From: Catalimonadaceae bacterium JC749
GTDB taxonomy: Bacteria > Bacteroidota > Bacteroidia > Cytophagales > Cyclobacteriaceae
Assembly (NCBI GenBank): GCA_021730635.1
Contig: JAJNNC010000011.1
Coordinates: 1 to 64,000, forward strand
DNA length: 64,000 bases
Reading direction: 5' to 3'
Shown here: positions 11,038 to 29,171 of the stretch, one piece after another
Layout of the letters: each line of letters begins with the position of its first letter
How positions within the stretch are numbered: the stretch's first letter is position 1
Position numbers and translations under genes: made by a program
Notes under the pieces: model-generated
Seen by the model: only the letters and a program-made list of their open reading frames with translations
Database searches by the model: none
What the model was told of the DNA's origin: nothing

Positions 11038-12252
11038 TCAGGGCTTTACCTGCTCAAAAACAAATACCCCTTTTTTATTGGCAATGATGATATCAACCAG
11101 TGCATCTTTGTTGATGTCTTCGGTCACTACATGTACCCCAACGCCCGAAAGATCATCAATCTGGTACGGAGTCCAGGTGGGGGTTTTTCCCGGCTTGAAG
11201 GCAAACCAATACAGCACAGGAGGTTCAAGTCCGCCCAGATCATGTCCCTGATGCGCAAAATAGCGCTTACCCGTGACCAGGTCAGGATGACCATCCGAAT
11301 TCATATCTGTCAAAGCCAGGCCGTGGGTTTGGGTAAAAGCATCAGAAATGAAGTGGGTTATCCAACGGATCTGCCCATGCTCATCTTTTATTTGTTCATG
11401 CCACCAGATGCCCAGCCGATGCGCAGAGGAAGATACTACATCCTGGTCACCATCTCCATCAAAATCATAGGCATACATCTGGGCAGCAGCCAGGCCTAAA
11501 TCAGCAGCGTGAAAGGTCCAGTTCTGCTGGCGTACATCAGCCGGTGCTTCCCACCACCCTTCTGTGATGATGACGTCTGGTCGTCCGTCTTTGTTCATGT
11601 CTCCTACACCCAGCCCATGAGAGAATTGGTCAGTGCCCGGGGCATTTTCTTTACTAATGGTAAATCTTTCCCACTTCGTACTGCCCTTGGTATCGGGAGC
11701 ACGTAACCAGATCATTTGGCGGGTGTTGTAATCCGAACCTAGGAGGTCAAGTCTGCCGTCTCCGTCGATATCATAAAAACCAGCCGACTCATTGCCGATG
11801 GCAGGATGAATGGTGTGCACTTTCCAATGCCCTTCCTTTTTCTTGGGGTTCTCAAACCACAAGGCTTCCTTACCGGGGAAACCAATGCGAACAAAATCCA
11901 GCCAGCCATCCAGGTTGACATCCATGGTCTGACTGATAAAGGCATTGCTATACCCCTGATCGTAATAAAACTTTTCCGGTTTGGTTAATTCATGTTTTTC
12001 CCAGTGCGGTGCCTCAAACCAGTAGGCACCTGCCAGCACATCTACCTGACCATCCTGGTTAATATCACCTACCGCTACGCCTTCAGCGATAAATTCTTCC
12101 AACAGTACATGTTTCTTAAAGGCAAGGTTGTCTGCAGCGTCAGCATTCCCTATTTCCTGTCCATGACTATTCGCTGAAAGGAAGTAGCTTCCCAGGAAAC
12201 AGGCCAGAAAAAAGCCATAGGCTTCTGGCTTAAAACTACATAGGATCATCAT
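11038..12252 (-). CDS. Secreted FG-GAP/VCBS repeat protein
   Basis: A 404-residue secreted protein. The hydrophobic start (FFLACFLGSYFLSANSHGQ) is a signal peptide. The rest is a beta-propeller of VCBS/FG-GAP repeats marked by calcium-loop motifs: GDINQDGQVDVLAG, DVNLDGWLDFV, DIDGDGRLDLLG, GDMNKDGRPDVI, DFDGDGDQDVV, DMNSDGHPDLVTG and DINKDALVDIII. This type, with FEAPHWEKH-like strands, is common next to PVC-type dehydrogenases in Planctomycetes and Bacteroidota. It is the last gene of the long minus-strand cluster, 135 bp after the cupredoxin-bearing dehydrogenase, and probably works with it as a scaffold or binding protein (inference). Confidence 0.85.
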   Translation of the reverse strand: MMILCSFKPEAYGFFLACFLGSYFLSANSHGQEIGNADAADNLAFKKHVLLEEFIAEGVAVGDINQDGQVDVLAGAYWFEAPHWEKHELTKPEKFYYDQGYSNAFISQTMDVNLDGWLDFVRIGFPGKEALWFENPKKKEGHWKVHTIHPAIGNESAGFYDIDGDGRLDLLGSDYNTRQMIWLRAPDTKGSTKWERFTISKENAPGTDQFSHGLGVGDMNKDGRPDVIITEGWWEAPADVRQQNWTFHAADLGLAAAQMYAYDFDGDGDQDVVSSSAHRLGIWWHEQIKDEHGQIRWITHFISDAFTQTHGLALTDMNSDGHPDLVTGKRYFAHQGHDLGGLEPPVLYWFAFKPGKTPTWTPYQIDDLSGVGVHVVTEDINKDALVDIIIANKKGVFVFEQVKP

Positions 12253-12387
12253 TTTTGAAGTTATGTAAGACTGAGTAAATATAACATAAGCGCCTCAAAA
12301 TCTTCTTTTGTAATAGTTGGACGAAAATTCTCAGGCGCTGGGATATCCCTGATCTCTTCAATTTTACGGCTGCCGAAAAGCCTCTTG

Positions 12388-15312
12388 TTAATTTTGAACA
12401 AGATACTTTTTGATCAGCATTTGTATCTCATGGTTCTGATGAGAATGATCCATTTTCTCCAGGCTCTGCTGCAACCTTTGCAGGGCTTTTTCCGCTTCCT
12501 CAGAGTCGATATCACCCACTCGTTGCACAGTAAAAGGCAGAATATGCGGCACCTTTGCTTTCAATGCCAGATCTACCGCTCTGTTGACATCAGTGGGTAC
12601 AGTGGGCTCAAAAGCATACCAAAGCATTAAGGGCTGGTTGTGGTCGCCTTCATCTTCAGCGCGTTGCAGGAGGGCTTCCAGGGTTTCCCACCTTTGCGCT
12701 TCAGGGATTCTCTGCATGGCGGAAGCCAGATATAATCTTACCAGGGCAGACTGATCGGTTGCTGCCATCTCCGCAAAACGTTGCAGGACATCCTCAGAAA
12801 GATCTTTGTCTTCTGCCATCAGTTGGATAGTCCAGCTTCTGATATACTCCTCTTCGTGATCCAGTAATTTGACCAGTTCTTTTTCACTCAGCCCTTCTGT
12901 TACATGAAGCGTCCACAGTGCCCGCAGCTTTCTTGTGACATCAGGATTATCGTTGAGAATTTTTTTCAAAGCGTTATGCACTTTCTTATTGGAGCCACGC
13001 TCCTGCAAAATCAGGCGAGCCGTTCTTACATACCATTCATTTTTATGCAGCTGATAGTTCACCAGTTCCATATCAGAGGCCTTCCTGAGATCCACCTGCA
13101 CCCATTGGTCACTTTCATGGGTGATCTTAAAAATACGTCCCAGAGTCTTGTCATGCACATCCGGATTGGGACTATGGCACTGGTTCTTATCATACCAGTC
13201 GATGGCAAAGACAGAACCGCTTGCGTCATATCTGAAGTTCAGCCATTGCGACCAGGTATCATTGGTGAGCAGGAAATCTTCCTCGTGGCTGGCCACATAG
13301 CCGGACCCATTTCTGGTGAGTTCATCAACATTGACCCGGCTGCCATGGATGTTATTCATGTAAATCTTGTTGCGATAGGCTGCCGGCCAGTTTTCACTTC
13401 CCAAATAAATCATAGCGCCTGCATGGGCATGACCTCCACCTTTGGAATTGGATCTGAAATTGCCTGCATGGGGGCCTCTTTCGCCTACCCAATGGACATG
13501 GTCTCCGATTTCCTTGATATCCTCATAAGTGTAGGGATTGAAATGTTCTCCGGCTTGCCGCAGATACCTGGCCCCCTGAATAGCATGAAACATATGGGGG
13601 ATGACACATACGGTAATAAAAGGATGACCATAGTCGTTGAAATCAATGCCCCAGGGGTTGCTGGTTCCTTCGGAAAACACTTCAAATTGTTTGGTAGTCG
13701 GATGGTACCGCCACACCCCGGCATTTATTTTGGTTCGCTCCTCATCCGTTGCCCCTGGCTGACCCACGTTAGAATGGGTGAAAACCCCATGGGTTCCATA
13801 TAGCCAGCCATCCGGTCCCCAACGGAAGTTGTTCAGTATTTCGTGGGTATCATCAAGGCCCCAACCATCGAGCAGTACTTGCGGAGGACCTGCCGGTTTG
13901 TCGGTCTTTTCGTCGACAGGAATGTACAATAGGTGAGGGGCTGATCCCAACCAGACACCTCCCATACCCACTTCGATGGCACTAATCAGGTTAAGTCCTT
14001 CCATAAAAACAGTTCTCTTATCCAGCGACCCATCCCCATTGGTATCTTCAAAGATGAGCACACGGTCTTTGCCTTGTCCTTCGGGTGCTCGTATGGGATA
14101 GGTATGCGCCTCGGCCACCCACAGCCTGCCACGGGCATCGATGGTAAAACTAATGGGGCGCACCACATCAGGTTCAGCGGCGGCCAGTGTCACAGAAAAT
14201 CCATCCTGCGGGGTCATACTTTTTGCGGCTTCCTGTCCCGAGAGGCCTGCGTGGATCACAGGATCCAGCGGAGGCAGGATGATGATATCACTTTGCTTGA
14301 GTTCGTTGGGAAAATTGGGGCGTTCCTCATAAAAGAGAAAATCATCAAAATTGATGTGGGCCCAGATATCATCCTTGATATAAGGAATTTGTGAGATTCC
14401 GGTTTCATTGTCTACCAGGCGGATAAAGATTTCTTTGTTCATGTGCTCCTGGAGATCTATTACCACCGGTTGTAAGGTGGCCCGTCCCGATCCGGTGATC
14501 TGAAAGATGATTTCCTGGTAGTCTGTTCTCACCACTTCCACACGTGTGTCCTGCAAAGCCCCTCCTGAAACCATAAAAGAAGCAAAGGGATGCGTCACTG
14601 TAAAAGGAGCGGAGGTAAGCGTTCCGGTGCCCTTGTAATTCTTAGTCCCGCCACTGCTGACAAAATAGTCTCCGGAGAAGTTAATGCGCATATCCTGTTC
14701 ATGGACAGGAGAAGGGTCCTGAGAGATGAGAGGATCTGAAAAGGCATCACCCGTAGCAGTCCAATCCTGCAGGGTTCCTGTTTCGAAGTTCAGATTCAGT
14801 GCCTTTCCCTCTTTGCTGGGTATTTGTCCGGCAACGGTTACAGTTTGGGTGACGATGCTATCAACCACCTCAAAATTTCCTACCATACCAGCTGCCCTGT
14901 GGCCTGGGATGGTACAGTAATAAGTGTCACTTTCTACAGCCTGAAAGACAATACTGGCGGTATCTCCCTTTTCTACCAGCACATCACTTTTAACGCCAAG
15001 CTTTTCAAGGGCGATGTCGTGTGTCATGGGCTCGCCATTGACAATTTTGATACGCACCCGTTCTCCCTTCAGGGCCTGAAGTACCGGGTTGCGTGTTCCG
15101 TCAGCATCAAAATATCCAAGCATGGTGGCCTGCAGCGTATAATCACGATCATAAGGGACAGCCTGCCTCACTTGTGAAGTGTCAGCATAGAAGGTCGCAC
15201 TGAAAGCATCCGGGCTGATGAATACTGCAAGCAGTATGAGAGCAAATAAACGAATTAAAAACATAAGCGATTGAGTATTTGAGGTTGTACTGGAAAAAAG
15301 TAGATTTTTCAT
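12388..15312 (-). CDS. PVC-type dehydrogenase with N-terminal cupredoxin domain and HEAT repeats
   Basis: A 974-residue secreted protein from the ATG at 15312; ATGs at 15342 and 15264 are in frame, the last placing the signal peptide (FLIRLFALILLAVF) right at the N-terminus. Order of domains: signal peptide; a plastocyanin-like cupredoxin (about 40-150) with type-1 copper ligands His98, Cys133, His138 and Met143 (MTHDI, YYCTIPGHRAAGM); a jelly-roll-like segment (about 170-340); the PVC 'membrane-bound dehydrogenase' beta-propeller (about 370-740, GFSVTLAAAEPDVVRP, RLWVAEAHTYP, WGPDGWLYG); and C-terminal HEAT-like helices. No CxxCH haem motif is present. Copper would pass electrons in place of haem. 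Likely periplasmic; substrate unknown, probably a sugar or alcohol group. The PEP-hydrolase-like gene ends about 100 bp upstream. Confidence 0.85.
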   Translation of the reverse strand: MKNLLFSSTTSNTQSLMFLIRLFALILLAVFISPDAFSATFYADTSQVRQAVPYDRDYTLQATMLGYFDADGTRNPVLQALKGERVRIKIVNGEPMTHDIALEKLGVKSDVLVEKGDTASIVFQAVESDTYYCTIPGHRAAGMVGNFEVVDSIVTQTVTVAGQIPSKEGKALNLNFETGTLQDWTATGDAFSDPLISQDPSPVHEQDMRINFSGDYFVSSGGTKNYKGTGTLTSAPFTVTHPFASFMVSGGALQDTRVEVVRTDYQEIIFQITGSGRATLQPVVIDLQEHMNKEIFIRLVDNETGISQIPYIKDDIWAHINFDDFLFYEERPNFPNELKQSDIIILPPLDPVIHAGLSGQEAAKSMTPQDGFSVTLAAAEPDVVRPISFTIDARGRLWVAEAHTYPIRAPEGQGKDRVLIFEDTNGDGSLDKRTVFMEGLNLISAIEVGMGGVWLGSAPHLLYIPVDEKTDKPAGPPQVLLDGWGLDDTHEILNNFRWGPDGWLYGTHGVFTHSNVGQPGATDEERTKINAGVWRYHPTTKQFEVFSEGTSNPWGIDFNDYGHPFITVCVIPHMFHAIQGARYLRQAGEHFNPYTYEDIKEIGDHVHWVGERGPHAGNFRSNSKGGGHAHAGAMIYLGSENWPAAYRNKIYMNNIHGSRVNVDELTRNGSGYVASHEEDFLLTNDTWSQWLNFRYDASGSVFAIDWYDKNQCHSPNPDVHDKTLGRIFKITHESDQWVQVDLRKASDMELVNYQLHKNEWYVRTARLILQERGSNKKVHNALKKILNDNPDVTRKLRALWTLHVTEGLSEKELVKLLDHEEEYIRSWTIQLMAEDKDLSEDVLQRFAEMAATDQSALVRLYLASAMQRIPEAQRWETLEALLQRAEDEGDHNQPLMLWYAFEPTVPTDVNRAVDLALKAKVPHILPFTVQRVGDIDSEEAEKALQRLQQSLEKMDHSHQNHEIQMLIKKYLVQN

Positions 15313-15410
15313 TATACAATGGTTAAAAAAAGTTATTGTCATTCAGTCACGGTAAGGTCACTTTCTTTCCTCTCGTCAGCTCTGCATGAACCAGCCACCT
15401 GACCTTTTTA

Positions 15411-16283
15411 TCATGGATGAGGTCTTTTAAGAGGAATGGCTTTAAAGCGACGGGTCAGGTCTGTCAGGGAGGCTTCCACCCCCATGCGCTCCAGCGAGGA
15501 AGCTCCCACAAATCCCTGGGCCTCTGTCTGCGAGAGTATCTCTTGCACATCCTCCGGGGTGTTGACCGGGCCTCCATGCGTGAGTACAAAGATGTCAGGA
15601 TTCACCTGCCTGCCTGCCTCCAGAATCTGTTGTGTCCGCTCTATGGCCTCTGCCATGCTGCAACTGGCCTCTACCACCCCCACTGAGCCTCCTACTGTGG
15701 TGCCCACATGAGCGATGATGGCATCAGCCCCCACCTGAGCCATCTGACGGGCTTCTTCCGGCTGGGCCACATACACAATAGAAAACAAATCCATCTTGGA
15801 GGCCAGTCTGACCATCTCCACTTCTTTGTCAAAGCCCATGCCTGTTTCTTCCAACACTGCTCTGAAATGACCATCCACTATGCAGTGGGTAGGAAAGTTG
15901 TTCACTCCTGAAAAGCCCATCTCCCTGACTTTCAACAGATGGTGCCACATCCTGCGGCGAGGATCCGAGCCATGCACCCCACAGATGACCGGGATGTCTT
16001 CCACCACAGGCAGCACCTCAAACTCTCCGATGTCCATGGCCACGGCATTGGCATCCCCATAGGCCATCAGCCCGGCTGTGGAGCCATGGCCTGCCATGCG
16101 AAAGCGGCCTGAGTTGTAGATGATCAGCAGGTCAGCCCCTCCTTTCTCTATGAACTTGGCACTGATACCGGTACCTGCTCCAGCGGCAATAATGGCCTTT
16201 TGTTGATCCAGGCTGCTTTGCAGTCTTTCTCTGACTTCTTGTCTGCTGTAAGGGTTTCCCTTACCCGTCCATGGGTTTGGCAT
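15411..16283 (-). CDS. Phosphoenolpyruvate hydrolase-family TIM-barrel protein
   Basis: A 290-residue cytosolic protein of the PEP-hydrolase-like (PF09370-type) TIM-barrel family. Visible features: a start with KGNPYSRQEVRERL, the barrel strands AIIAAGAGTGISAKFIEKGGADLLIIYNSG and VIAGVHGSDP-like ICGVHGSDPRRRMW, the loop GFSGVNNFPTH, and the C-terminal phosphate-type loop VLTHGGPVNTPEDV. In plants the equivalent domain is fused to a UPF0261 domain in the tomato Tm-1 resistance protein. Here the UPF0261 protein is encoded immediately upstream, with 21 bp between. Enzymatic activity of the bacterial pair is not established, to my knowledge; a role in cleaving or condensing a small organic acid is likely from the fold. 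Confidence 0.88.
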   Translation of the reverse strand: MPNPWTGKGNPYSRQEVRERLQSSLDQQKAIIAAGAGTGISAKFIEKGGADLLIIYNSGRFRMAGHGSTAGLMAYGDANAVAMDIGEFEVLPVVEDIPVICGVHGSDPRRRMWHHLLKVREMGFSGVNNFPTHCIVDGHFRAVLEETGMGFDKEVEMVRLASKMDLFSIVYVAQPEEARQMAQVGADAIIAHVGTTVGGSVGVVEASCSMAEAIERTQQILEAGRQVNPDIFVLTHGGPVNTPEDVQEILSQTEAQGFVGASSLERMGVEASLTDLTRRFKAIPLKRPHP

Positions 16284-16304
16284 AATGGTAATGTGATTAG
16301 TTGG

Positions 16305-17558
16305 TCAAATTGTGTTTTTTGAATCTATGATGTTATTTTTTTCTAGCATGTTTAACAATACTGCCACTGAGGTTTCGGCAAACTGTCTATCGTTGATATG
16401 GGCGTCTACTTCAAGAACGCTTACTTTTTCCTGGGCGTGTTTTTTGATAGACTCGAATAAAGCCCGATCCGCCTCGGGATAATAAAATACACCCCCTGCC
16501 GCATCTATCTGGGATAATCCTTTTGTCGGCAACAGAATCGCTGTGGCAGCGGTGGAACGATTCAGTTTTTGGGCAATTCTTTCTCCCAGTATGATATTCT
16601 CTTCTGTATTGGTTCGCATCAACGTGACATCGGGTGCCCAGCTATACAGCTTGCGTGATTGGTACTGCTCCGGTACGGTATCCCATTGGGCAAAGTTGAC
16701 CATATCCAGACAGCCCGGCACCACTACCTGGGGAATCTTCATCTCTGTCGCAGCAGTGAGGCGATCGGGGCCTGCACTTAAGATGCCTCCACATAATTCA
16801 TCGGCCAACTCTGTGGTGGTAATATCCAGGACAGCGTCAAAATACCCTTCACGGATCAAGGCTTCCATGGTTTTGCCGCCTACCCCCGTGGCATGAAAAG
16901 CGAGTACCTCATAGCCTTTATGGTTCAATAGCTCAGTGCATTGGTCCACACAGGGGGTGGTATTGCCAAACATGCTGATGGCAATGGTACCGGCCGTCAC
17001 TACCTCTTCAGTGGCCGTCACTTTTGCCATGGCACAGATGGCCGATGCTGCTTGCTCTATTAATATTTTACTGATCCTGTTCAGACCAGCCACATCCACC
17101 ACTGAAGGCATGAGGGTAATATTCTTGTTTCCCATTTGACGGGTCAAATCATTGGCTGCTACCGTGGATACACAAAGTTTGGGAACTGCCAAAGGGATGG
17201 CCTGCATAGCGGAGAGAGCCAGATAAGTGCCGCCGCCACCCCCCATGCCAATAGCGGCCTTGATTTGTCCCCGCTCAATGAGTTTTGATACGATTTTGGC
17301 GGCTCCCTTTCCCATAATATCTACGGCATGTCCCCGGTCCGCTTTTTTCCTTAAGTCGGTCAGGGTAGCGCCTCCTTCCTGCGCTATGACCTCTGCTTCA
17401 AAATCTACCGGAAAATAGTCGGTAGAACCCATGATCCCCGTATTGATTGTGAGTACCTGCTCTCCCTGGGCCAGAATGCACTGCCGGAGATAGGAAAATA
17501 CTTCTCCTTTGGTATCAAAGCAGCCAAGCATGAGAATGGATTTGTTAGTCGCAGCCAT
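16305..17558 (-). CDS. Tm-1-like ATP-binding domain protein (UPF0261)
   Basis: A 417-residue cytosolic protein of the UPF0261/Tm-1-like family. The N-terminal Rossmann-like domain starts ILMLGCFDTKGEVFSYLRQCI; a glycine-rich nucleotide loop AAIGMGGGGGTYLALSAM lies around residues 104-122; the second domain has ISMFGNTTPCVDQC and EVLAFHATGVGGKTMEALI. These match the family in full length and order. In tomato Tm-1 this domain binds ATP and a viral replicase; the bacterial role is unknown but is always tied to the TIM-barrel partner, encoded 21 bp downstream. A Dabb protein precedes it by 109 bp. The three probably form a cytosolic catabolic module within the longer operon (inference). Confidence 0.9.
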   Translation of the reverse strand: MAATNKSILMLGCFDTKGEVFSYLRQCILAQGEQVLTINTGIMGSTDYFPVDFEAEVIAQEGGATLTDLRKKADRGHAVDIMGKGAAKIVSKLIERGQIKAAIGMGGGGGTYLALSAMQAIPLAVPKLCVSTVAANDLTRQMGNKNITLMPSVVDVAGLNRISKILIEQAASAICAMAKVTATEEVVTAGTIAISMFGNTTPCVDQCTELLNHKGYEVLAFHATGVGGKTMEALIREGYFDAVLDITTTELADELCGGILSAGPDRLTAATEMKIPQVVVPGCLDMVNFAQWDTVPEQYQSRKLYSWAPDVTLMRTNTEENIILGERIAQKLNRSTAATAILLPTKGLSQIDAAGGVFYYPEADRALFESIKKHAQEKVSVLEVDAHINDRQFAETSVAVLLNMLEKNNIIDSKNTI

Positions 17559-17667
17559 TATTGTTCAATTTGAGGTTACAATCACCTTTCATAGATATCT
17601 CTTTGCGTCATCAATCTCCAGACTTAGAAGCGCAGGATAACTGTTTTTTCATTAATATCAGTGGTTT

Positions 17668-17964
17668 TTAGACAATAAAATCAAAAACCACTACTCTTTC
17701 CAGCCTGGGCACGACCAACTCCTTGACTTCTTCATGGATGGGGTGGGGCAAATAGGCATCTCTGGATTCGGGAGAGTCAAAGGTCATGATAAAGCCATGG
17801 GTAAAATCCTCGTTTAAGCCTTCCTTGCTGTTGTAAGGACCATATTCCATGGCCAAGAGCCCGGGAATTTTCTCTACCATCGCTTTCATCGATTGGAAAC
17901 ATTCCTTGATTTGTTCCTCTGAAATGGTGGGTTTGAATTTAAATACGCCAAAGTGTCTAACCAT
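17668..17964 (-). CDS. Dabb (stress-responsive alpha/beta barrel) protein
   Basis: About 98 residues from the ATG at 17964, which gives the family's usual MVRHFGVFKFKP start; an ATG at 17985 would add seven residues. The dimeric ferredoxin-like Dabb fold is seen in the pattern HxxxFKFKP..SEEQIKECF, LLAMEYGPYNSKEG and DFTHGFIMTFDSPESRDAYLPHPIHEEV. Members are small cytosolic proteins; some are cyclases or decarboxylases, most are unassigned. It follows the haem-bearing dehydrogenase with about 47 bp between and precedes the Tm-1-like gene, so it probably belongs to the same pathway. Confidence 0.88.
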   Translation of the reverse strand: MVRHFGVFKFKPTISEEQIKECFQSMKAMVEKIPGLLAMEYGPYNSKEGLNEDFTHGFIMTFDSPESRDAYLPHPIHEEVKELVVPRLERVVVFDFIV

Positions 17965-18011
17965 TGTATTATTGTTTTCGGCCACTGATCATGTTAACTG
18001 CTTGAAAATCT

Positions 18012-21000
18012 TTATTTTAAAGTACGGATATAAGTAATCAGATCCGCAATTTGCTCCTCGGTATAACTTTCTATGAGCCCTTTGGGCATAAAGGATCGCC
18101 CTCCCAGAAAACCCTGGCTCCGGATCGCTTCTGCTGCAATGAAGACCTGACTACCGCCCATGAAGGCGAGGGTGGTTCCACGCTCATCTTTTTTCACTAA
18201 ATAACCTTCCATACTGCTACCATCTTTTTTAGTGACACGATAAGCCGCATAACCGGATTCTACAGCTGCGTCCGGATCAAGAATGGCAGTGAGCAGGGCT
18301 TCGGTATCCCGGTTGGCAGAACCGTCTAAGGCAGGGGCAATGTCCTGTCCTTTGTTGCCCACTTTGTGGCACATCAGGCAGGTCTGAAAGAGTACTTCCC
18401 CTTTGGGAGCACTGCCTTCTTTTTTCTCCGCAATGCTGATGTACCGGGCGAGTTTATCTTCAAAAGCCTTCTTTTCTTCTTCCTCCCGTTTTTTTACTCC
18501 TTCCAGAATGGCCGAGCCACGAGGATCGGTGCGGTTGGTATTATAAACCCGTTCTGCCGCAGAGAGGTCAAAAGCGGCCAGCGCTATGAGGTTTTGATCG
18601 TATACCTGCTTTAGTAGATCAGCCCCTTGTGCTGTACCCGATAACATATCGGCCAGCTCACTTTTCTGAGAAGCGGTAAGCTTGGGTATCCATGGCTGCA
18701 GAGCCTGCAGGCCTGCCTCCGGATTTGCTTTGGTGAGGCTGTGCAATGCCGTTGCCCGTATTGGGAAGCTGTATTTTTCATTGTGAAGTATGCGTGCAAA
18801 CACCTCCTGATGGGCCTTCGGATGATTCTCCAGTGCTTTGAGTGCGAGTGCCAGGGTTTGGTCAGACCATTGATCATTGAGCAAAGCCACAACCGCTTCC
18901 TGCGAATTTTTCATGTTGAAGCGGCCTATGGCATCCAGCGCCAGGTTTATGTCTGACTCCGCATTTTTCCGGAGTAGTGCACTGACCGGCTCCTGGAGTA
19001 GGGCCGAGAGTTCGGGAGACTGCACCTGCTCCTGATTTTGCAGGGCAAAGTGGATGTATTCCGCGGCGTGAGCCGGATTTTGCAGGACAGGCTTGACGGC
19101 AGTATACACCTCTTTGTTTCCCAGCATTTGGGCAATGCTTACGAAGGTAGGCTCGTCGAGTTGGGTGATGTTGGCTTCGGGCCAGAACTTGAGAAAAGCG
19201 GTTTCTTTTTGCGCATCTGGCAACGCCTGTATCGCCCACAGTAAGTTTTCAACGGGGACTTTTTTGGCAGAGGGACCCTTTAGGTAGGTCTGTAAGGCTT
19301 CCGGATATTGTTCCAACGCTTTGCGCGCGAGAAAACGTTCGTGCTTTCTCTCATAAGCGCCACCCATGGCATTCCCCGGAAGTTCCGGTTTGGCGGCACG
19401 AACGAGTAGATCGATGGTAGACTGATCTGCCGCTCCTATTTCTGCGAGTGTACGAATGACCTGAGCGCGGACCGTAGGATTTTTGTCTTCTATCAGCTCT
19501 TTGACAGCACTGGCTGTCTGGGCAGGCTTGAGAGAAAAGCTTGTCAGGGAACGAACCGCCTCCCGGCGAAGATGAGGTAAGGGAGACTGTAGTAAGGATG
19601 TCAGGAGTTTGTGATCGTAATGTTGGATACCTTCCAACGACCAGAGCGCATGGATACGTGTAATTTCATCTTGCGAGGGATCACCGGCTAAAGCCACCAG
19701 CGCCGGCGCTAGCTTTCTGGTTTCTGCCAAAGGACGATCAGTAATCTGATGCCAGGCTGCCCGTTTCGCCCAGAGCGAGGGTGACTTCAGATGGCTGACC
19801 AGGGCTTCCGTTTGCATTTGATAGAAGTCAGGAATATCCCGTGGCTGTTGACTCTTGTGACGGATGCGCCAGATTCTACCGTGCGATTTGTCACGGTCGG
19901 GGTGGGTGGTAGGCACTTCATTGTGAGAGACAATTTTGTTGTACCAATCTGCAATATAAAGACATCCGTCAGGGCCAAACTCCATGTTCACCGGGCGGAA
20001 CCAGTCGTCTTTAGAGGTTAAAAGATCCGGCAGATGCTGAGAAGTAACGCTCCCATCGGGGTTTCTGATGATCTTCACGGCGTTGATCGTACTGGTGATG
20101 GGATTGGCCAGAAAAGCCACATCCTTCCATTCGTCGGGGAAAGATCCGGAAACATCATCTGAAAAGGCTAACCCTGAGATGCCGGTACCGCCCACACGAA
20201 ATTCGTGCAGTTGAGGCATCCAGGGTTGGTAGAAACGTAATCGCTCATTCCCAATGCCCGGAAATCCCATGCCTGACTCTAAGGGAACCACGGAATAGCC
20301 TAAATCATTGGCTTCGGAGCCAAACCACTGCCCGTTGTGGCGGAGCTGAAAGCCCCAGATATTATTGAGCCCTGCATTCAGGAGTTCTATTTTTTTAGCA
20401 TCCAGGGAGAAGCGAACTATCTTACTGTAATTGATGGTCAGTTTGACATCGCTTTGTAAGGAAGAAACCTCCCCTTTATTCAGCGCGCCATGGCTGAAAT
20501 GAATCCAGTCGCCAGGCGCTCTTATCAATACATGCGACATGGTATGAGAATCGGTAAAACCAAAGCCGGTAAACATAGGCGTGCGTTGATCTGCCTTGCC
20601 ATCTCCGTTGGTATCGTCAAGGAAGAAAAGCTCAGAGCCCTGGGCTACGTAAGCGCCATCTTTATAAGGCAGAATACTCTGGGGAATGGTAAGACCGTCA
20701 GCCCATACGGTGGTTTTGACCGGTGCCTCGTCATACAGGTTGGAGAGTATCAGGATCTTATCCGTCCCTTGGGTCTTTCCCTGATACAGCGACAGGACGC
20801 GCTTGAAGTTGGGATGATTCTTCTGCGCTTCCTGATCATTCATCAGCGCCAGTAAATCATTCCATTGGATATCTGCGACAGGGTCCAGGGGATACATGGC
20901 GGCGGTCTGGGTCCAGAGTCGGCCGGCATCGTCGAAGGTGAGATCAATGGGGTTCACGATCCCTTCTCTTTCGCTGGCGACCAGCTCGATGACAAAACCT

Positions 21001-21128
21001 TCGGGAACGGTAAATCCTGCCAGTTCCTGTTCGGGTGTATTGATCTGGGTACGGGTAGAGAGAGATTGTGCCCATAGGGCTGCTGTACAATATAGGCTCG
21101 TTACGAGCAATAGCGTAATAAACTTCAT
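18012..21128 (-). CDS. PVC-type dehydrogenase with HEAT repeats and C-terminal haem c domain
   Basis: A 1038-residue secreted protein. Signal peptide (MKFITLLLVTSLYCTAALWAQ), then the PVC-type 'membrane-bound dehydrogenase' propeller (about 35-420: GFVIELVASEREGIVNPIDL, GRLWTQTAAMYP, WGFQLRHNGQWFGSEANDLGY, MEFGPDGCLYIADWYNKIV), then HEAT repeats (about 450-860), and a C-terminal cytochrome domain of the TIGR02603 type with the haem motif CLMCH at 917-921 and a likely axial Met1014 (SFMPKG). The protein would oxidise a periplasmic substrate and pass electrons to the respiratory chain. It lies between the DUF1080 gene (103 bp upstream) and the Dabb gene. Family name is firm; catalytic activity has not been shown for the family, so the substrate is inference. 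Confidence 0.9.
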   Translation of the reverse strand: MKFITLLLVTSLYCTAALWAQSLSTRTQINTPEQELAGFTVPEGFVIELVASEREGIVNPIDLTFDDAGRLWTQTAAMYPLDPVADIQWNDLLALMNDQEAQKNHPNFKRVLSLYQGKTQGTDKILILSNLYDEAPVKTTVWADGLTIPQSILPYKDGAYVAQGSELFFLDDTNGDGKADQRTPMFTGFGFTDSHTMSHVLIRAPGDWIHFSHGALNKGEVSSLQSDVKLTINYSKIVRFSLDAKKIELLNAGLNNIWGFQLRHNGQWFGSEANDLGYSVVPLESGMGFPGIGNERLRFYQPWMPQLHEFRVGGTGISGLAFSDDVSGSFPDEWKDVAFLANPITSTINAVKIIRNPDGSVTSQHLPDLLTSKDDWFRPVNMEFGPDGCLYIADWYNKIVSHNEVPTTHPDRDKSHGRIWRIRHKSQQPRDIPDFYQMQTEALVSHLKSPSLWAKRAAWHQITDRPLAETRKLAPALVALAGDPSQDEITRIHALWSLEGIQHYDHKLLTSLLQSPLPHLRREAVRSLTSFSLKPAQTASAVKELIEDKNPTVRAQVIRTLAEIGAADQSTIDLLVRAAKPELPGNAMGGAYERKHERFLARKALEQYPEALQTYLKGPSAKKVPVENLLWAIQALPDAQKETAFLKFWPEANITQLDEPTFVSIAQMLGNKEVYTAVKPVLQNPAHAAEYIHFALQNQEQVQSPELSALLQEPVSALLRKNAESDINLALDAIGRFNMKNSQEAVVALLNDQWSDQTLALALKALENHPKAHQEVFARILHNEKYSFPIRATALHSLTKANPEAGLQALQPWIPKLTASQKSELADMLSGTAQGADLLKQVYDQNLIALAAFDLSAAERVYNTNRTDPRGSAILEGVKKREEEEKKAFEDKLARYISIAEKKEGSAPKGEVLFQTCLMCHKVGNKGQDIAPALDGSANRDTEALLTAILDPDAAVESGYAAYRVTKKDGSSMEGYLVKKDERGTTLAFMGGSQVFIAAEAIRSQGFLGGRSFMPKGLIESYTEEQIADLITYIRTLK

Positions 21129-21231
21129 AGTTTCAGGGTATTAGTGCTAAAAAAACTTCCATTCAATGTGGCTCGCCCGCTTTGTGGTGAGCAGGCCGGT
21201 AGGCAATGCTATGGATTATCTTTTTAGCGCA

Positions 21232-21894
21232 TTATTTTAGTTCATTGATGGTAAGGTTCCGAAACTCCACCTTGGCTGCACCACCACTATGCACTTGCAC
21301 GGCGATCACCCCCCTGGCAGGTATCTGGGCATCTTTCTCTATATAATCACAGGTTTTGACACCGTTGATGTACAGTTCATGGTGGTTGCCTTTGACCCGA
21401 ATGATGTAGCTATTCCAGCCATCTTCCTTCAGGATATGTTTGAGTGTGCGGAGGTCGCCACCACAAAGTTTTCCTCGACGATGCTCATCATAAATATCTC
21501 CCCAGTAACCATTACCAATATCAGCCTGATAACCTACCATCTGTCCCTCATGTATCTTGGAACGATATTGAATACCGCTGTTGATCATCCCCGTTTCAGG
21601 GTCACCGGAGAGACGGAACAGGCATCGGAACTCGAAGTCACCAAACTCCTTTTCAGTGTAGAGATAGGTGTTTTCTGTGATGATCGTACTTCCATCACCC
21701 CCTATGATGACACTGTCTTTCGCATGCCATAACTTCTCCTCCGCCGGTTTCATGGTTTTCCAACCTTTGAGGGTTTTTCCATCAAAAAGGGAGGTACTTT
21801 TGACTGTCTCCTGTCCGTAGGTATCTGATGCGGGAAAAAATAGAACTAAAATAAGTATTTTTAGACTTAAAGCTATTTTTGCGATCTTCTTCAT
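21232..21894 (-). CDS. DUF1080 (3-keto-disaccharide hydrolase) family protein, secreted
   Basis: A 220-residue protein from the ATG at 21894; the ATG at 21924 adds ten residues before the signal peptide and is less likely. Signal peptide (KKIAKIALSLKILILVLFF), then a concanavalin-like DUF1080 domain: SLFDGKTLKGWK, FGDFEFRCLFRLSG, NSGIQYRSKIHEG, YQADIGNGYWGDIYDEHRRG and the closing VIAVQVHSGGAAKVEFRNL. Members act on 3-keto-glycosides made by sugar 3-dehydrogenases, either hydrolysing them or eliminating the aglycone. The downstream neighbour is the haem-bearing dehydrogenase and the upstream neighbour is SusD (146 bp), so it probably acts in the periplasm on an imported glycoside. Confidence 0.88.
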   Translation of the reverse strand: MKKIAKIALSLKILILVLFFPASDTYGQETVKSTSLFDGKTLKGWKTMKPAEEKLWHAKDSVIIGGDGSTIITENTYLYTEKEFGDFEFRCLFRLSGDPETGMINSGIQYRSKIHEGQMVGYQADIGNGYWGDIYDEHRRGKLCGGDLRTLKHILKEDGWNSYIIRVKGNHHELYINGVKTCDYIEKDAQIPARGVIAVQVHSGGAAKVEFRNLTINELK

Positions 21895-22070
21895 GTTGTT
21901 GTAATAGTTCCAATGTTTTCTCATAGTATGCTATTTTTATTAAAAGGCTTTCTTACCCGATCCTGTCACCGATGCACAAAATAGTGCTTTTCAGTGACAC
22001 GATCAGGAAGGGCCTGCCTTTTTTCTGCCACAGGCCATGCGTTTGGGTGAAGATTTCCAAACCTGCCTTG

Positions 22071-23822: not shown

Positions 23823-23852
23823 AATCGTTTTTCTTTAGGATCATTCTTGAAG

Positions 23853-26800
23853 TTATAATGAGAAATTGACACCCAAGGTGAACTTGAGCGGTCTTCCATA
23901 ATCATTATTGGGATTTTCAGGATCCGGACCTGTATAGGTATTGCTCTTCAGCAGGACGAGATTCTCGCCAATGAGAAAAACACGCAGGTTGTCCAGGAAC
24001 TTCAGTCCACTTGTATCAAAATTGTAGTTGAGTTCTACATTTCGTACTTTCATGTACGATCCGTTTTCAATAAAATAGCTGGAAGACCGGTATTCATTAT
24101 TCTTATTGGAGGTAATCAGGGCAGGAATGGGGCTGCCTGAATTCTGGGGTGTCCAGGCATCCAGCACCCTTGTTCCATAGTTAATGCCTGCTCTGGAGAA
24201 AATAAAATCTGTGTTCTGCTTCGTCGAGTTATAAACGTTTTTCCCCGATTCCCCATTCAGGAAGACAGTCAAACCCCATCGTTTGTAGGTTACATTGGCC
24301 GTTAAACCATAAATGAATGCCGGTAATGTGTTTCCCTGAAATTTCTGATCCAGAGAATTGATGACCCCGTCGTTATTCAAATCCGCATACCTGATTCTTC
24401 CAATATCTTTCCCTACCTGATCGGCATGGGCATCTACCTCTTCCTGGTTCTGGAAAAGGCCATCGGCCACATAACCAAACAAGGCCCGTTGGGAATGACC
24501 TAAAATGGTTTGCTCCACGTTGCCGGGGTAAGCCCTGACGACGTCTTCCGGTAAATAAGTGATTTTGTCCTCAAAATGCCCGACATTGGTAGAAATCGTG
24601 TATTTAAAGTCTCCGGCAGCTTTACTGTATTCCAGAATAAATTCCCATCCCTTGTTTTCTACCGTAGCGCCATTGTACCATTTGTTGCCTCCTTCTCCGA
24701 TAGCGCCCAGATAGGGCGGCTGAATTAAAATATCTTTGGATTTTCTGACATAATAATCAAAGGAACCGGTGATAGCCATGCCTAAAAATCCAAAGTCAAG
24801 CCCTACGTTGTTCTCTGTGGTCGTCTCCCATTTTAAGATAGGGTTGCCTGCTTTTACCCGCCGGAACCCGGATGGTAAATTGCCACTGTCATTGCCGCCT
24901 ATATCATAGGAGGTACTGTAATCCCAGTCCCAGGTGTAGTCTATCCCATAACGAGCTTCATAGAGGGCCAGTGCGGCATCATTGCCAATCTCCTGGTTAC
25001 CCACAATGCCAAATCCATATCTTGGTTTCAGAAAATCAATAAATTCAAAATTATCCTTGATAAAAGGTTCCTGATCCATTCTCCAGCCAGCGGAGACAGA
25101 CGGGAAAGTACCAAATTTATTCTCTACCCCGAACCGGGAAGAACCATCGTAGCGTAAAGTGGCAGCGAGAAGATATTTGTCAGAAAAATTATAGTTTATT
25201 TTTCCAAAAAATGATAAGAGCTGATAGCCGGTTTCCGACCCTGATACGGTCTGGGTTCCCACAGCGGCATTCATCTCATAATAGTCCCGTTCGTCTGAAG
25301 CAAAATCATCGGCAAAGGTATTGAGCCAGACGTCATTGTTCTTGTAGAGTTCTGTGCCAGCCAGGATCGTAGCGGAATGTTTGTTATGCGCAATATTATA
25401 GTTTAAGGTATTACTTAAACTCCAGTTAAAAGTATTGTTTTTGTTGATGGTCAGGTTGGCTATTTCACGATGCAGGAAGCCGGATTCAAAAGGTCTTTGT
25501 ATGTCAGTCAGGGTAGAATTAAGGTACTCGATGCCCAAGGTGGATCGCAGCTCGAGATTTTTGATCACATTGATGGCCACATAACCACTTCCCATGATTC
25601 TTTCCGTTTTGGTATTGTCCCATGCATTAATATGGGAATCCAATACGGGTTGAAGCCAGTCTTCAAATCCGGCACCCCAGGGACCTCCCCAACCTCCATC
25701 TTCTGTGTGAACAGGAATGATGGGTTGTATGGTCAAAGCACCACCCCTGACATGGTCCGGATACCTGACAGAGGAAGTTACTACGATATTTTCCCCAATT
25801 TCAATGGCATCATTCAGAAATTTATAGTGGGAGTTAAGGCTTAGATTCAGTCTGTTAAATTTATCATTGATAAAGACACCTTTGTTCAGGTAATGAGCGA
25901 TGGATAATCTTGAGCCTCCCGCTTGGCCCCCTGTGGATAGGGTCAGTTCATTTCTTAAAATGAGTCCCGGCTGTGTCACTTCCTCCCACCAATCCGTATC
26001 GGCGCTTCTTATGCCTAACTCCTGGCTGATCCATTCGTTGGGGATGACCCGATTCAAAACAGGATTGCCGTTGCCATCATAATTCCAGTCATAATCGTAA
26101 AGAGGATGGTCGTTCGGGTCGTTCCCTTCATTGATAAAAGCTTGCCACATGGCCCGTCCGCGCTGCTCCGTATTCAGCACCGGCGTGATGCTTTGGTATT
26201 TCTGGGTGGTCACCCTGGAATCAAAGGTGATTCTGTTTCCTTTTCCTTTTTTGGTTTCTATGATAATTACACCATTGGAAGCTCTGGAGCCATAAATAGA
26301 AGAGGCTGCGGCATCTTTCAATACCTGAATATTCTCAATACTGCTGGCATCTATATTGTTGATACCGTTTTTGGTGGGCAAACCATCAATAATGTAGAGA
26401 GGAGAATTATCGCCAAGGGTGCTCAACCCTCTGATGACAATGCCTACCCCCGCCCCTGGGGCTCCTGAAGTTGTGACATAGGCTCCAGGCATTTGTCCTT
26501 GCAGTGCTTCCAAGGGGTTACTGGCAGAACTCCTCACCAGTGTTTCTGTATCCACCACATCAATAGCGCCTGTCAAATCACTTTTTCTTTGCGTTCCATA
26601 CCCCACAACCACTACCTCGTTCAGGCTTTGTACATCTTCTGCCAGGGTCACATCAATAGTATTTCTTCCATTCACCGGTATTTCCTGTATCGCATAACCA
26701 ATGGAGGAAAATATCAAGGTATCATTTTCATTGGGTACATTGAGGCTATACTTACCATCAATATCCGTCACTGTCCCGATGGTGGTGCTTTTTACCAGCA

Positions 26801-27266
26801 CATTGACCCCTGGCAGGGTGCCTCCCCCTGTAGTGGAGGTGACGGTGCCTGTCACCATAATTTCCGGTTTTATTTCCACTTCATACCTTAAGGTTTCCCC
26901 GGCCATTTTGCTCACATTAATGCTATTGTTGACCTGCTTGAATTTAAGGTGTGCCTGGCTGGATATTTCCAGTAAAATGTCTGCGACAGATTGTCGATTA
27001 GACTTCAGGCTCATTTTCACCTCCCCATCCAGGTCTTTCTTTTCATAAGAAAATTTAAATTTCGTTTTTGACTCTATGGCTTCAAAAACTTCTGTCAGAG
27101 AGGCATCTTCAAGGTCGATAGAAATAAACACCTCTTTGGCACTAAGGGCTTCTTGCGTGACCCCATCGGTTGCAAACAGAGCGCTGAAAAGCACATCCTG
27201 TATCATTACACTGCCAAAAAGTAGGTTTGGCGTAAAGAGTAGTAGGTGTATTAGTATAAATTTCAT
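23853..27266 (-). CDS. SusC/RagA TonB-dependent transporter with STN signalling domain
   Basis: A 1137-residue outer-membrane transporter. Signal peptide; a secretin/TonB short N-terminal (STN) domain at about 45-115 (VFISIDLEDASLTEVFEAIESK); a carboxypeptidase-D-like beta-sandwich at about 133-215 (GVNVLVKSTTIGTVTDIDGKY); TonB-box-like VVVGYGTQRKSDLTGAI; a plug (LQGQMPGAYVTTSG, VIRGLSTLGDNSPLYIIDGLP); and a 22-strand barrel ending in FTLGVNFSL. The STN domain is the part that speaks to a FecR anti-sigma factor, and the fecR and sigma genes lie directly upstream, so the transporter probably induces its own operon when loaded. It is paired with susD, 30 bp downstream. Confidence 0.95.
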   Translation of the reverse strand: MKFILIHLLLFTPNLLFGSVMIQDVLFSALFATDGVTQEALSAKEVFISIDLEDASLTEVFEAIESKTKFKFSYEKKDLDGEVKMSLKSNRQSVADILLEISSQAHLKFKQVNNSINVSKMAGETLRYEVEIKPEIMVTGTVTSTTGGGTLPGVNVLVKSTTIGTVTDIDGKYSLNVPNENDTLIFSSIGYAIQEIPVNGRNTIDVTLAEDVQSLNEVVVVGYGTQRKSDLTGAIDVVDTETLVRSSASNPLEALQGQMPGAYVTTSGAPGAGVGIVIRGLSTLGDNSPLYIIDGLPTKNGINNIDASSIENIQVLKDAAASSIYGSRASNGVIIIETKKGKGNRITFDSRVTTQKYQSITPVLNTEQRGRAMWQAFINEGNDPNDHPLYDYDWNYDGNGNPVLNRVIPNEWISQELGIRSADTDWWEEVTQPGLILRNELTLSTGGQAGGSRLSIAHYLNKGVFINDKFNRLNLSLNSHYKFLNDAIEIGENIVVTSSVRYPDHVRGGALTIQPIIPVHTEDGGWGGPWGAGFEDWLQPVLDSHINAWDNTKTERIMGSGYVAINVIKNLELRSTLGIEYLNSTLTDIQRPFESGFLHREIANLTINKNNTFNWSLSNTLNYNIAHNKHSATILAGTELYKNNDVWLNTFADDFASDERDYYEMNAAVGTQTVSGSETGYQLLSFFGKINYNFSDKYLLAATLRYDGSSRFGVENKFGTFPSVSAGWRMDQEPFIKDNFEFIDFLKPRYGFGIVGNQEIGNDAALALYEARYGIDYTWDWDYSTSYDIGGNDSGNLPSGFRRVKAGNPILKWETTTENNVGLDFGFLGMAITGSFDYYVRKSKDILIQPPYLGAIGEGGNKWYNGATVENKGWEFILEYSKAAGDFKYTISTNVGHFEDKITYLPEDVVRAYPGNVEQTILGHSQRALFGYVADGLFQNQEEVDAHADQVGKDIGRIRYADLNNDGVINSLDQKFQGNTLPAFIYGLTANVTYKRWGLTVFLNGESGKNVYNSTKQNTDFIFSRAGINYGTRVLDAWTPQNSGSPIPALITSNKNNEYRSSSYFIENGSYMKVRNVELNYNFDTSGLKFLDNLRVFLIGENLVLLKSNTYTGPDPENPNNDYGRPLKFTLGVNFSL

Positions 27267-27422
27267 AGAATAACTTGGTTATGATTGAGGTTCAGTATTA
27301 GTCTGAGCACAACGATCCTGGGGAAAGCCCACCTAGCCCATTGGGCTTATGATCCTGACAGGCGAGGCTCACAAAGCTGGCAATGCTAATTTAGGAGGTG
27401 TCTTTTTTCATGGTAGTGTTGT

Positions 27423-28436
27423 TTATAAGTGATTGAAGGTTATGGTGACCAGTTTCCCGGTGATTTCGTAAGTGAAGTGTTTTACATATCCTATACTGAC
27501 CAAAACATCCTCTAAACTTTGGCTTTGGAAAGTACCGCTGTATTGCCATTCCTGAGGGTTTTTGCCAGCGGCCTGTATCTCTATGTCGTACCAGCGTTCT
27601 AATGCTTTTTTTACTTCTTCAAAGGAGGCATCACTGAAGTACAGGATCTCATCTTTCCAGGCCATTCTTTCTTTTGGCTCAAAATCCTTTAGGGTAAAAA
27701 CCTTGAGATCTGTTTGGTAAATGGCTTCTTTGTTCGGAAATAAGTAGTGTGCCTGATCCGTCAGATGACGCTGAGATACCTTCACTTGCCCGCTGGCTAC
27801 AGAGACAGTCACCTGGGCGTCATCCGCATAGGCTTTGATGTTAAAGGAGGTACCCAGTACGGTAGTGTAAATGTCCCCGCTTATAATGATAAATGGGCGG
27901 TTTTCATCTCTGACCACTTCAAAAAAAGCTTCTCCTTCCAGCGTCACTTCCCGTTTGTTCTCTGAAAAATGCGCAGGGTAGGAAAGCCTGCTCTCAGCAT
28001 TCAAAGTTACCATCGTTCCGTCTGCGAGCGTGACCCTTTGTCTTTGTCCCCTAGGCACTTCCTTGACTATCAGGGAAACGATCGCTGATTCCTTGTCCTC
28101 AGACTTGATCTTTTGCATAAGAAATGAAAGGCTGAAAGCCATTACAATAATGGCGGCCACTCTATAAAACTGATCAATAGGGGTAGATTTAGGGGTAGAT
28201 TTTTTCAGCCCTATTTCTCCCTCTTTTCTTAGCCTTGCATGGATATTACCAAGTAATACTTCCGGGCGATGCTGCGGTAACGCCTCTTCGGGGTCTTCAA
28301 ATTCCAGCCAGTAATTCTGTAATTGCTGTAATACCTTTTCCTTGTCACCTTCCGCATCAAACCAGCGAAGCACTTCTTTAACTTCTTCTTCAGAGCAGGC
28401 ACCTCTGTAAAATTTTTCTAAAAGCCTGATGTCCAT
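27423..28436 (-). CDS. FecR-family anti-sigma factor
   Basis: A 337-residue inner-membrane protein. The cytosolic N-terminus (MDIRLLEKFYRGACSEEEVKEVLRWF) binds the sigma factor, one membrane segment lies at about 92-110 (VAAIIVMAFSLSFLMQKI), and the periplasmic FecR domain (VPRGQRQRVTLADGTMVTLNAESRLSYP, REVTLEGEAFFEVVRDENRPF) is followed by a C-terminal DUF4974-type domain (FSDASFEEVKKALERWYDIEI). It would hold the ECF factor until the STN domain of the SusC protein signals. It lies 147 bp after the sigma gene and 156 bp before susC. Confidence 0.95.
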   Translation of the reverse strand: MDIRLLEKFYRGACSEEEVKEVLRWFDAEGDKEKVLQQLQNYWLEFEDPEEALPQHRPEVLLGNIHARLRKEGEIGLKKSTPKSTPIDQFYRVAAIIVMAFSLSFLMQKIKSEDKESAIVSLIVKEVPRGQRQRVTLADGTMVTLNAESRLSYPAHFSENKREVTLEGEAFFEVVRDENRPFIIISGDIYTTVLGTSFNIKAYADDAQVTVSVASGQVKVSQRHLTDQAHYLFPNKEAIYQTDLKVFTLKDFEPKERMAWKDEILYFSDASFEEVKKALERWYDIEIQAAGKNPQEWQYSGTFQSQSLEDVLVSIGYVKHFTYEITGKLVTITFNHL

Positions 28437-28583
28437 ACCTTTTAACTTATTTATATGAGTAATACAGATAAGTCAGGGGTAGCACCTAAGCGCTGGTGAA
28501 AAATTTTTAAAAAAGTTTTTGGGAGGGGTTGGCCTGTCAGGAGCAAAGCTCATTCCGGACAGGCGGGTTCTTGACCAGAAGGC

Positions 28584-29171
28584 TTAAGGCCACCAACATA
28601 AGAACAGCAGACAGAGATGGATATCGTGCAAAGGAAGCTGCTGCTTCAGCATTTTTAAGGATTTATTGATATGGTTCTCAACCGTGCTTAAAGACAGGTT
28701 CAGTTGATCGGCAATTTCCCGGTTGCTTAACCCCTGGAAGCGACTCATCGTGAAGACCTGCTTTCTTTTATCCGGCATATTACTGACTATCTGTTCAATA
28801 ATGTTTTTCATCTCTTGAAAGCAGCAGGTTTCTTCCGCGTTGTTGACCAGGTTTGAGGTCGTATCCGAGCAATAGCGCTTGTAAGCGGTTTCAGAAACTC
28901 TTTTGGACAGAAGGTTATAGATATGATTTTTGGCTACGGTAAAGATAAAAGCTTTAAAGGAGAGTTGTTCATCCAGTAAATATCTTTTCTTCCAGATCTT
29001 ATAAAAGACTTCCTGTACTACCTCTTCTGCATCTTCTTCAGAAGGTAGTATTTTAAGGGAAAAGGCATAGAGTATTCTTTCGTATTTATAAAACAAAAGA
29101 TTAAAGGCCTCTTCACTGCCTGCTTTGAGCTTTAAAATAAGCTCCCTGTCTTGATAGGATTGGGTCTTCAT
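28584..29171 (-). CDS. ECF RNA polymerase sigma factor (FecI-like)
   Basis: A 195-residue sigma-70 family ECF factor. Region 2 contains EEDAEEVVQEVFYKIWKKR, and region 4 the helix-turn-helix GLSNREIADQLNLSLSTVENHINKSLKMLK. The last residues (DIHLCLLFLCWWP) are strongly hydrophobic, as in many Bacteroidota sus-type sigma factors. It is first in the long minus-strand cluster and upstream of its FecR partner, and probably transcribes susC onward. No matching ECF promoter could be identified by eye ahead of susC. Confidence 0.93.
   Translation of the reverse strand: MKTQSYQDRELILKLKAGSEEAFNLLFYKYERILYAFSLKILPSEEDAEEVVQEVFYKIWKKRYLLDEQLSFKAFIFTVAKNHIYNLLSKRVSETAYKRYCSDTTSNLVNNAEETCCFQEMKNIIEQIVSNMPDKRKQVFTMSRFQGLSNREIADQLNLSLSTVENHINKSLKMLKQQLPLHDIHLCLLFLCWWP

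Follow-up and report, generated by a model that had tools for sequence, protein, structure and literature searches.

Does a run of eleven same-strand genes in a Bacteroidota genome constitute one complete catabolic pathway, as the initial annotation of this DNA proposed, or have parts of different origin been joined at one locus? The window, i.e. the whole stretch of 64,000 nucleotides that was analysed, belongs to a host genome of 8.0 Mb. According to the ORF list of the window 11 ORFs lie between 29171 and 11038, all on the minus strand. They are assigned below either to a frame (regulation, uptake and two further secreted proteins) or to a five-gene core.

Organisation of the gene run

The genes and further features of the cluster are given in the direction of transcription.

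28584-29171, minus strand: ECF sigma factor (frame); TIGR02985 148 bits, cut-off 126.4
27423-28436, minus strand: FecR anti-sigma factor (frame); FecR and FecR_C over the Pfam cut-off
23853-27266, minus strand: SusC TonB-dependent transporter (frame); TIGR04056 765 bits
22071-23822, minus strand: SusD surface lipoprotein (frame); SusD_RagB 137 bits, lipobox LLLAC by reading the sequence
21925-22070, minus strand: frame/core junction with a very stable mRNA stem-loop; -59 kcal/mol, z -6.6; none of 200 shuffled sequences reached this stability
21232-21924, minus strand: DUF1080 / 3-keto-disaccharide hydrolase-like secreted protein (core); PF06439 126.6 bits, cut-off 26.8
18012-21128, minus strand: PVC-type periplasmic haem dehydrogenase (PVC haem, core); DUF7133 propeller, HEAT repeats, cytochrome c
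17668-17964, minus strand: Dabb small barrel protein, cytoplasmic (core); PF07876 91.5 bits
16305-17558, minus strand: Tm-1-like / UPF0261 protein (core); PF06792 and PF23189 (N and C domains, 179.8 and 306 bits)
15411-16283, minus strand: TIM barrel, PF09370 "PEP hydrolase-like" (core); 354.9 bits, solved relative 2p10
12388-15342, minus strand: PVC-type protein with N-terminal cupredoxin (PVC-Cu, frame); TIGR02604 332.5 bits, Copper-bind 24.3 bits
12264-12383, minus strand: possible 3'-terminal remnant of a PVC haem gene that was lost; 40-codon open frame in the PVC-Cu/FG-GAP gap
11038-12252, minus strand: FG-GAP repeat secreted protein (frame); PF13517 106 bits
10670-10698, minus strand: likely transcription terminator of the run, downstream of FG-GAP; 12-bp stem, then a T-rich tail

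From the sigma factor to FG-GAP the intergenic gaps measure 147, 156, 30, 146, 103, 47, 109, 21, 68 and 135 bp. The initial annotation had described a one-way run of eleven genes with gaps of about 20-156 bp, and coordinates, strand and gaps (21-156 bp) all agree with it. Its family names were recovered with Pfam and NCBIfam models as well, except for the STN domain of SusC: the N-terminal STN-like domain is weak, with 23 bits (E 6.7e-5) against a Pfam cut-off of 28.4. SusC and SusD are adjacent (30-bp gap), with the ECF sigma factor and FecR upstream. For Dabb the ATG at 17964 was taken as start codon instead of the GTG at 17985, because 17/17 aligned relatives begin there; with the GTG start the 47-bp gap to the PVC haem gene becomes 26 bp.

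The eleven genes appear to form one operon. A single transcript is predicted because of the gaps, the shared direction and the absence of any minus-strand terminator-like site from the gaps between the eleven genes. The stem-loop between SusD and DUF1080 (arms CCTGATC...GATCGGG) could be an attenuator, a processing site or an mRNA stabiliser. It could also reduce read-through, which would count against a single transcript. A repeated mobile element was ruled out as an explanation for this structure, since it is present in one copy in the genome. Sigma-70-like sites, rarer than in shuffled sequence, gave no information, a simple pattern detected no Bacteroidota-type promoter, and the RNA family search gave no match. 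The sigma/FecR gap (28437-28583, minus strand) contains a perfect inverted repeat, GCCTGTC/GACAGGC (z -2.5).

Upstream of the sigma factor the same-strand run extends past a 253-bp gap to position 32641 with genes for a Gfo/Idh protein, a hexapeptide acetyltransferase and an MFS transporter. The Gfo/Idh/MocA oxidoreductase, which has a Tat-like signal and lies immediately upstream of the sigma factor (29425-30756, minus strand), shows weak likeness to inositol 2-dehydrogenase and to the glycoside 3-dehydrogenase BT_2158, far under the cut-offs (49 bits with the BT_2158 model, cut-off 750). None of the eleven genes encodes a classical-family glycoside hydrolase or polysaccharide lyase; the nearest glycoside hydrolase is a GH3 at 39753-41786, outside of the run. 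An ORF on the plus strand (6299-7798), likewise outside of the cluster, encodes an M56 BlaR1-type peptidase domain together with POTRA-like repeats.

The five core genes and their conservation

DUF1080 and the PVC genes carry secretion signals as read from the sequence, and Dabb, Tm-1 and TIM lack them. DUF1080 is 54-67% identical over 18 core loci and contains an invariant block, YWGDIYDEHRR. The DUF1080 clade of the core is only distantly related to the solved and characterised 3-keto enzymes (8rr2, E 0.004). The PVC haem protein scores above the cut-off with both TIGR02604 (152.5 bits) and TIGR02603 (105.2 bits), and its CxxCH motif (C917, C920, H921) is invariant in 21 sequences. A profile search with this protein against the PDB retrieved cytochrome domains only. 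In its predicted structure (pLDDT 71.5) the propeller is poorly modelled, and a fold search with the model returned almost only HEAT/armadillo-repeat proteins; therefore no cofactor was deduced from it. Both families are abundant in the 8-Mb host genome, with 23 matches for DUF1080 and 21 for DUF7133, and for PVC haem and copper proteins we found no assigned substrate. A 3-dehydrogenase of the LacABC or BT2158 type is absent from the eleven genes.

The Tm-1-like gene, which is present in single copy in the host genome, comprises the UPF0261 N and C domains and is separated by 21 bp from the gene for the PF09370 TIM barrel. The Tm-1-like protein is homologous to the tomato Tm-1 structures 3wrw/3wry and to 9mpy, and by the former homology it is predicted to bind ATP. 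The TIM barrel looks catalytically intact, because its conserved residues, among them the HGGP and GASS-ER blocks, recur in relatives from haloarchaea and actinobacteria. The only strong match of its model (pLDDT 69) was 2p10, a structure of unknown function, followed by generic TIM barrels, so no reaction was assigned; comparison of the model with viral structures gave nothing useful. The pairing of Tm-1 with TIM was described in 2016, when co-evolution of the two was reported, and the window encodes as two separate genes what plant Tm-1 unites as its two halves (PMC5028733). UPF0261 proteins occur in bacteria, haloarchaea, fungi and land plants, and the family is the source of a virus-resistance gene in a crop plant (tomato). 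A normal metabolic role for Tm-1/UPF0261 was not found in the literature searched.

A Tm-1 profile built from five relatives was used to collect 80 loci, onto which the window proteins were mapped. All ORFs of these loci and of the loci of further relatives were clustered, and same-strand neighbours were counted. The order DUF1080-PVC haem-Dabb-Tm-1/UPF0261-TIM recurs in Cytophagales, Flavobacteriaceae, Chitinophagaceae and Pedobacter; gaps are typically 13-42 bp. Tm-1 and TIM are adjacent 75 times, DUF1080 and PVC haem 32 times, Dabb and Tm-1 28 times, PVC haem and Dabb 15 times, and PVC haem and FG-GAP 10 times; DUF1080 is thus the commonest partner of PVC haem. With 23 DUF1080 and 21 DUF7133 matches in the 8-Mb host genome, far too few copies exist for these adjacencies to be due to chance.

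The surroundings of the core vary. In Dyadobacter (L039, L040) the order is sigma-FecR-SusC-SusD-DUF1080-PVC haem-Dabb-Tm-1-TIM, followed by a GH3-type gene. In Dyadobacter core loci this gene (L039:3345-4868; L119:12198-13721) lies directly 3' of TIM and resembles the lyso-ornithine lipid synthetase OlsH (290 bits, cut-off 620). The Flavobacteriaceae form (Arenibacter, Cellulophaga and others) starts with an AraC regulator and continues with DUF1080-PVC haem-FG-GAP-Dabb-Tm-1-TIM-MFS; the MFS gene 3' of TIM is found in about 12 loci, mostly from this family. In Arenibacter palladensis (L094:1600-5500) Dabb-Tm-1 occurs twice in tandem around the TIM gene. Saprospiraceae and others have Tm-1-TIM followed by a cupin and/or a PVC protein that contains cupredoxin and ThuA domains. 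Outside of the Bacteroidota the Tm-1/TIM pair is accompanied by cupins, by ABC, SSS or MFS transporters and by GntR, IclR or TetR regulators, settings that are compatible with a general role in small-molecule catabolism.

Of about 390 genomes of the order, 16 have a close orthologue of PVC haem and 29 have UPF0261. Both occur in 10 genomes where about 1.2 are expected (Fisher p 6e-9, or 5e-8 when the window genome is left out), in a test that ignores shared ancestry, several of the ten genomes being Dyadobacter. By coordinates the two genes are adjacent in 9 of the 10. The mapped set of 80 loci is independent of the genomes used in the Fisher test and covers several families. In the PVC haem tree the window protein groups near G040, Dyadobacter and Pedobacter, and some genomes of the same family as the window fall within an Arenibacter clade; according to this the core has probably moved between families. 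A co-occurrence of the cluster genes in other genomes, which the initial annotation had named as a check by gene neighbourhood, was thus found for DUF1080, PVC haem, Dabb, Tm-1 and TIM and does not extend to all eleven. For the core this rejects a lack of co-occurrence, which the annotation had listed under what would refute it.

Frame and core as separate modules

A frame of sigma-FecR-SusC-SusD-PVC-Cu-FG-GAP exists without the core at L172 in the Dyadobacter genome G288, and sigma-FecR-SusC-SusD-PVC-Cu (PVC-Cu 78% identical) also lacks it at L165. The same genome G288 carries the core at a separate locus, L041. Compared with the window, L041 shows identities of 69% for DUF1080, 68% for PVC haem, 72% for Dabb, 66% for Tm-1 and 84% for TIM, with 30% for SusC and 24% for SusD. 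L172 shows 40% for SusC, 46% for SusD, 68% for PVC-Cu and 50% for FG-GAP, and has none of the core genes. At 25-38% identity the sigma factor and FecR favour neither locus. This split suggests that the window contains a frame in which the core has been placed exactly between SusD and PVC-Cu.

Window SusD is 46-47% identical to that of frame loci versus 24% to that of core loci; its nearest relatives (46-55%) stand in other gene settings. PVC-Cu contains TIGR02604 and the cupredoxin only, with no cytochrome c domain in the Pfam and NCBIfam searches, and its ligand motif C-x4-H-x4-M is intact as read from the sequence. The gene is very widespread, with orthologues of 65-79% identity in about 70 genomes of the order. 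No relative searched has a close PVC-Cu copy beside Tm-1, and the best identity at mapped core loci is 30%. FG-GAP is paired with PVC-Cu also in L170 and L172. The 40-codon stretch between these two genes resembles the C-termini of PVC haem proteins (ORFs of 1042-1074 amino acids; best E 0.0066) and may, on weak evidence, be a PVC haem remnant near the merger seam.

Since the frame is found without the core and the core recurs elsewhere, the core is regarded as a conserved catabolic unit and the eleven-gene set as a local merger. The direction of the event, insertion and not an ancestral fusion that was later split, is proposed on grounds of parsimony. The case illustrates the merging of uptake and catabolic modules in Bacteroidota: here the enzymes keep 66-84% identity while the SusCD partner changes. 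The description as a complete eleven-gene pathway therefore gives way to a merger of two modules, and the run is without an obvious inner-membrane transporter and without a known 3-dehydrogenase.

Proposed function and comparison with known systems

We lean towards one self-regulated operon for uptake and catabolism, joined from two independent modules, in which uptake is followed by periplasmic oxidation and cleavage and then by cytoplasmic processing. This reading builds on the observed gene content, module boundaries, conservation and haem and copper motifs; compartments and electron flow are taken from the protein families. The ECF sigma factor and FecR would sense transport through SusC, and SusC/SusD would bring an oligomeric or glycosidic nutrient across the outer membrane. 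The secreted PVC haem dehydrogenase would oxidise the imported compound, with its own cytochrome c as electron acceptor, and DUF1080 would cleave the oxidised glycoside, probably of the 3-keto type. PVC-Cu and its FG-GAP partner would act in the periplasm too. The cleavage product would enter the cytoplasm via a transporter encoded elsewhere, where Dabb, the putatively ATP-binding Tm-1-like protein and the TIM barrel would convert it to central metabolites, of which small hydroxy or keto acids are the likeliest. Import of a periplasmic product for Dabb, Tm-1 and TIM is suggested by the MFS gene that follows TIM in the Flavobacteriaceae form. What the substrate is, that a 3-keto step takes place and which reaction Tm-1/TIM carry out are guesses.

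A glycan as substrate is suggested by SusCD and DUF1080 only. Several core loci have glycan-related neighbours, namely GH20 (beside L016, L088 and L131), GH123 (beside L095) and sulfatases (near L071, L077 and L103), which hint at amino-sugar or sulfated glycans but carry no weight for the window. Acid products are suggested by neighbours of other kinds. In Cyclobacteriaceae YHN15 (L097:260-5325) an AraC gene, an enolase-superfamily (sugar-acid) dehydratase-like gene and LutA/LutB-like genes directly precede the core, and in L131 an FMN lactate dehydrogenase-like gene lies beside it.

The same neighbours speak for the core as a sugar-acid or hydroxy-acid pathway, in which PVC haem would make an acid directly from an aldose or alcohol, DUF1080 would be a binding protein or a lyase, and Tm-1 would use ATP to activate the acid for C-C cleavage by TIM. 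The remoteness of DUF1080 from characterised 3-keto enzymes fits this alternative, as does the company of Tm-1/TIM elsewhere, where glycoside genes are few and the pair is accompanied by ABC (amino-acid type), SSS or MFS transporters. However, the acid genes adjoin single core loci only, and the top partner of PVC haem (32 adjacencies) is DUF1080, whose family is tied to 3-keto sugars (PMC9007349). We regard the alternative as somewhat unlikely.

The single pathway of the initial annotation could be an ancestral one of eleven genes, evolved jointly for one plant glycoside and reduced in relatives by loss. Shared strand and short gaps would agree with it, and SusCD precedes the core also in Dyadobacter, L016/L099 and L115. 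Yet the SusC and SusD found there share only 23-30% identity with the window proteins versus 58-84% for the core, PVC-Cu/FG-GAP adjoin a different and closer SusCD, and PVC-Cu exceeds 30% identity at no other core locus. In its plain form this view is largely refuted by G288, where frame and core occupy separate loci, and we consider it improbable. That unrelated periplasmic and cytoplasmic genes share one operon merely by accident is very improbable: with 23 DUF1080 and 21 DUF7133 matches some clustering is expected, but one gene order is kept at 54-84% identity over several Bacteroidota families (Fisher p 6e-9).

It is possible, if rather doubtful, that the five core genes make up a complete and undescribed pathway, with the split Tm-1 (UPF0261 and TIM) as the cytoplasmic enzyme that finishes the breakdown of the PVC haem/DUF1080 product. 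The two halves need not form one pathway, as at least 6 loci have DUF1080-PVC haem but no Tm-1, and Tm-1/TIM occurs without the remaining core genes in other phyla. If the proposal is true, the Tm-1/UPF0261 family gains its first physiological substrate class. A conserved operon with inducible transporters and dehydrogenases offers a direct route to the Tm-1 substrate via growth screens, e.g. in culturable Dyadobacter. None of the open-licence papers searched joins UPF0261 with DUF1080 or PVC proteins. The term "undescribed" therefore stands for the five-gene core in the literature searched; it does not apply to the Tm-1/TIM pairing itself, which was already known (PMC5028733).

Four kinds of known systems resemble parts of the cluster. 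As in polysaccharide utilization loci with SusC/SusD and ECF sigma/FecR, the genes for sigma, FecR, SusC and SusD head the operon in canonical order, whereas a classical glycoside hydrolase is lacking and the catabolic part is oxidative (DUF1080 and PVC proteins). In Caulobacter the DUF1080 protein beside LacABC was proposed to be a 3'-ketolactose hydrolase (PMC9007349). The 3-keto-glycoside pathways (LacABC with DUF1080 in Caulobacter; BT2156-BT2160 in Bacteroides thetaiotaomicron) share with the window a secreted DUF1080 adjoining a periplasmic dehydrogenase, but in the window this enzyme is a PVC haem protein and not LacABC or BT2158. The adjacent single-domain Tm-1/UPF0261 and TIM genes match the two halves of the plant Tm-1-like fusion; in Bacteroidota, however, they are linked with Dabb, PVC haem and DUF1080, an arrangement absent from the literature searched. 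Both large window proteins belong by score to the PVC-type haem/copper dehydrogenase-like proteins (TIGR02604/TIGR02603, DUF7133), the copper one differing by its cupredoxin at the N-terminus. The cluster is therefore an inducible SusCD utilisation locus of a known kind, which differs by an oxidative core with a split Tm-1.
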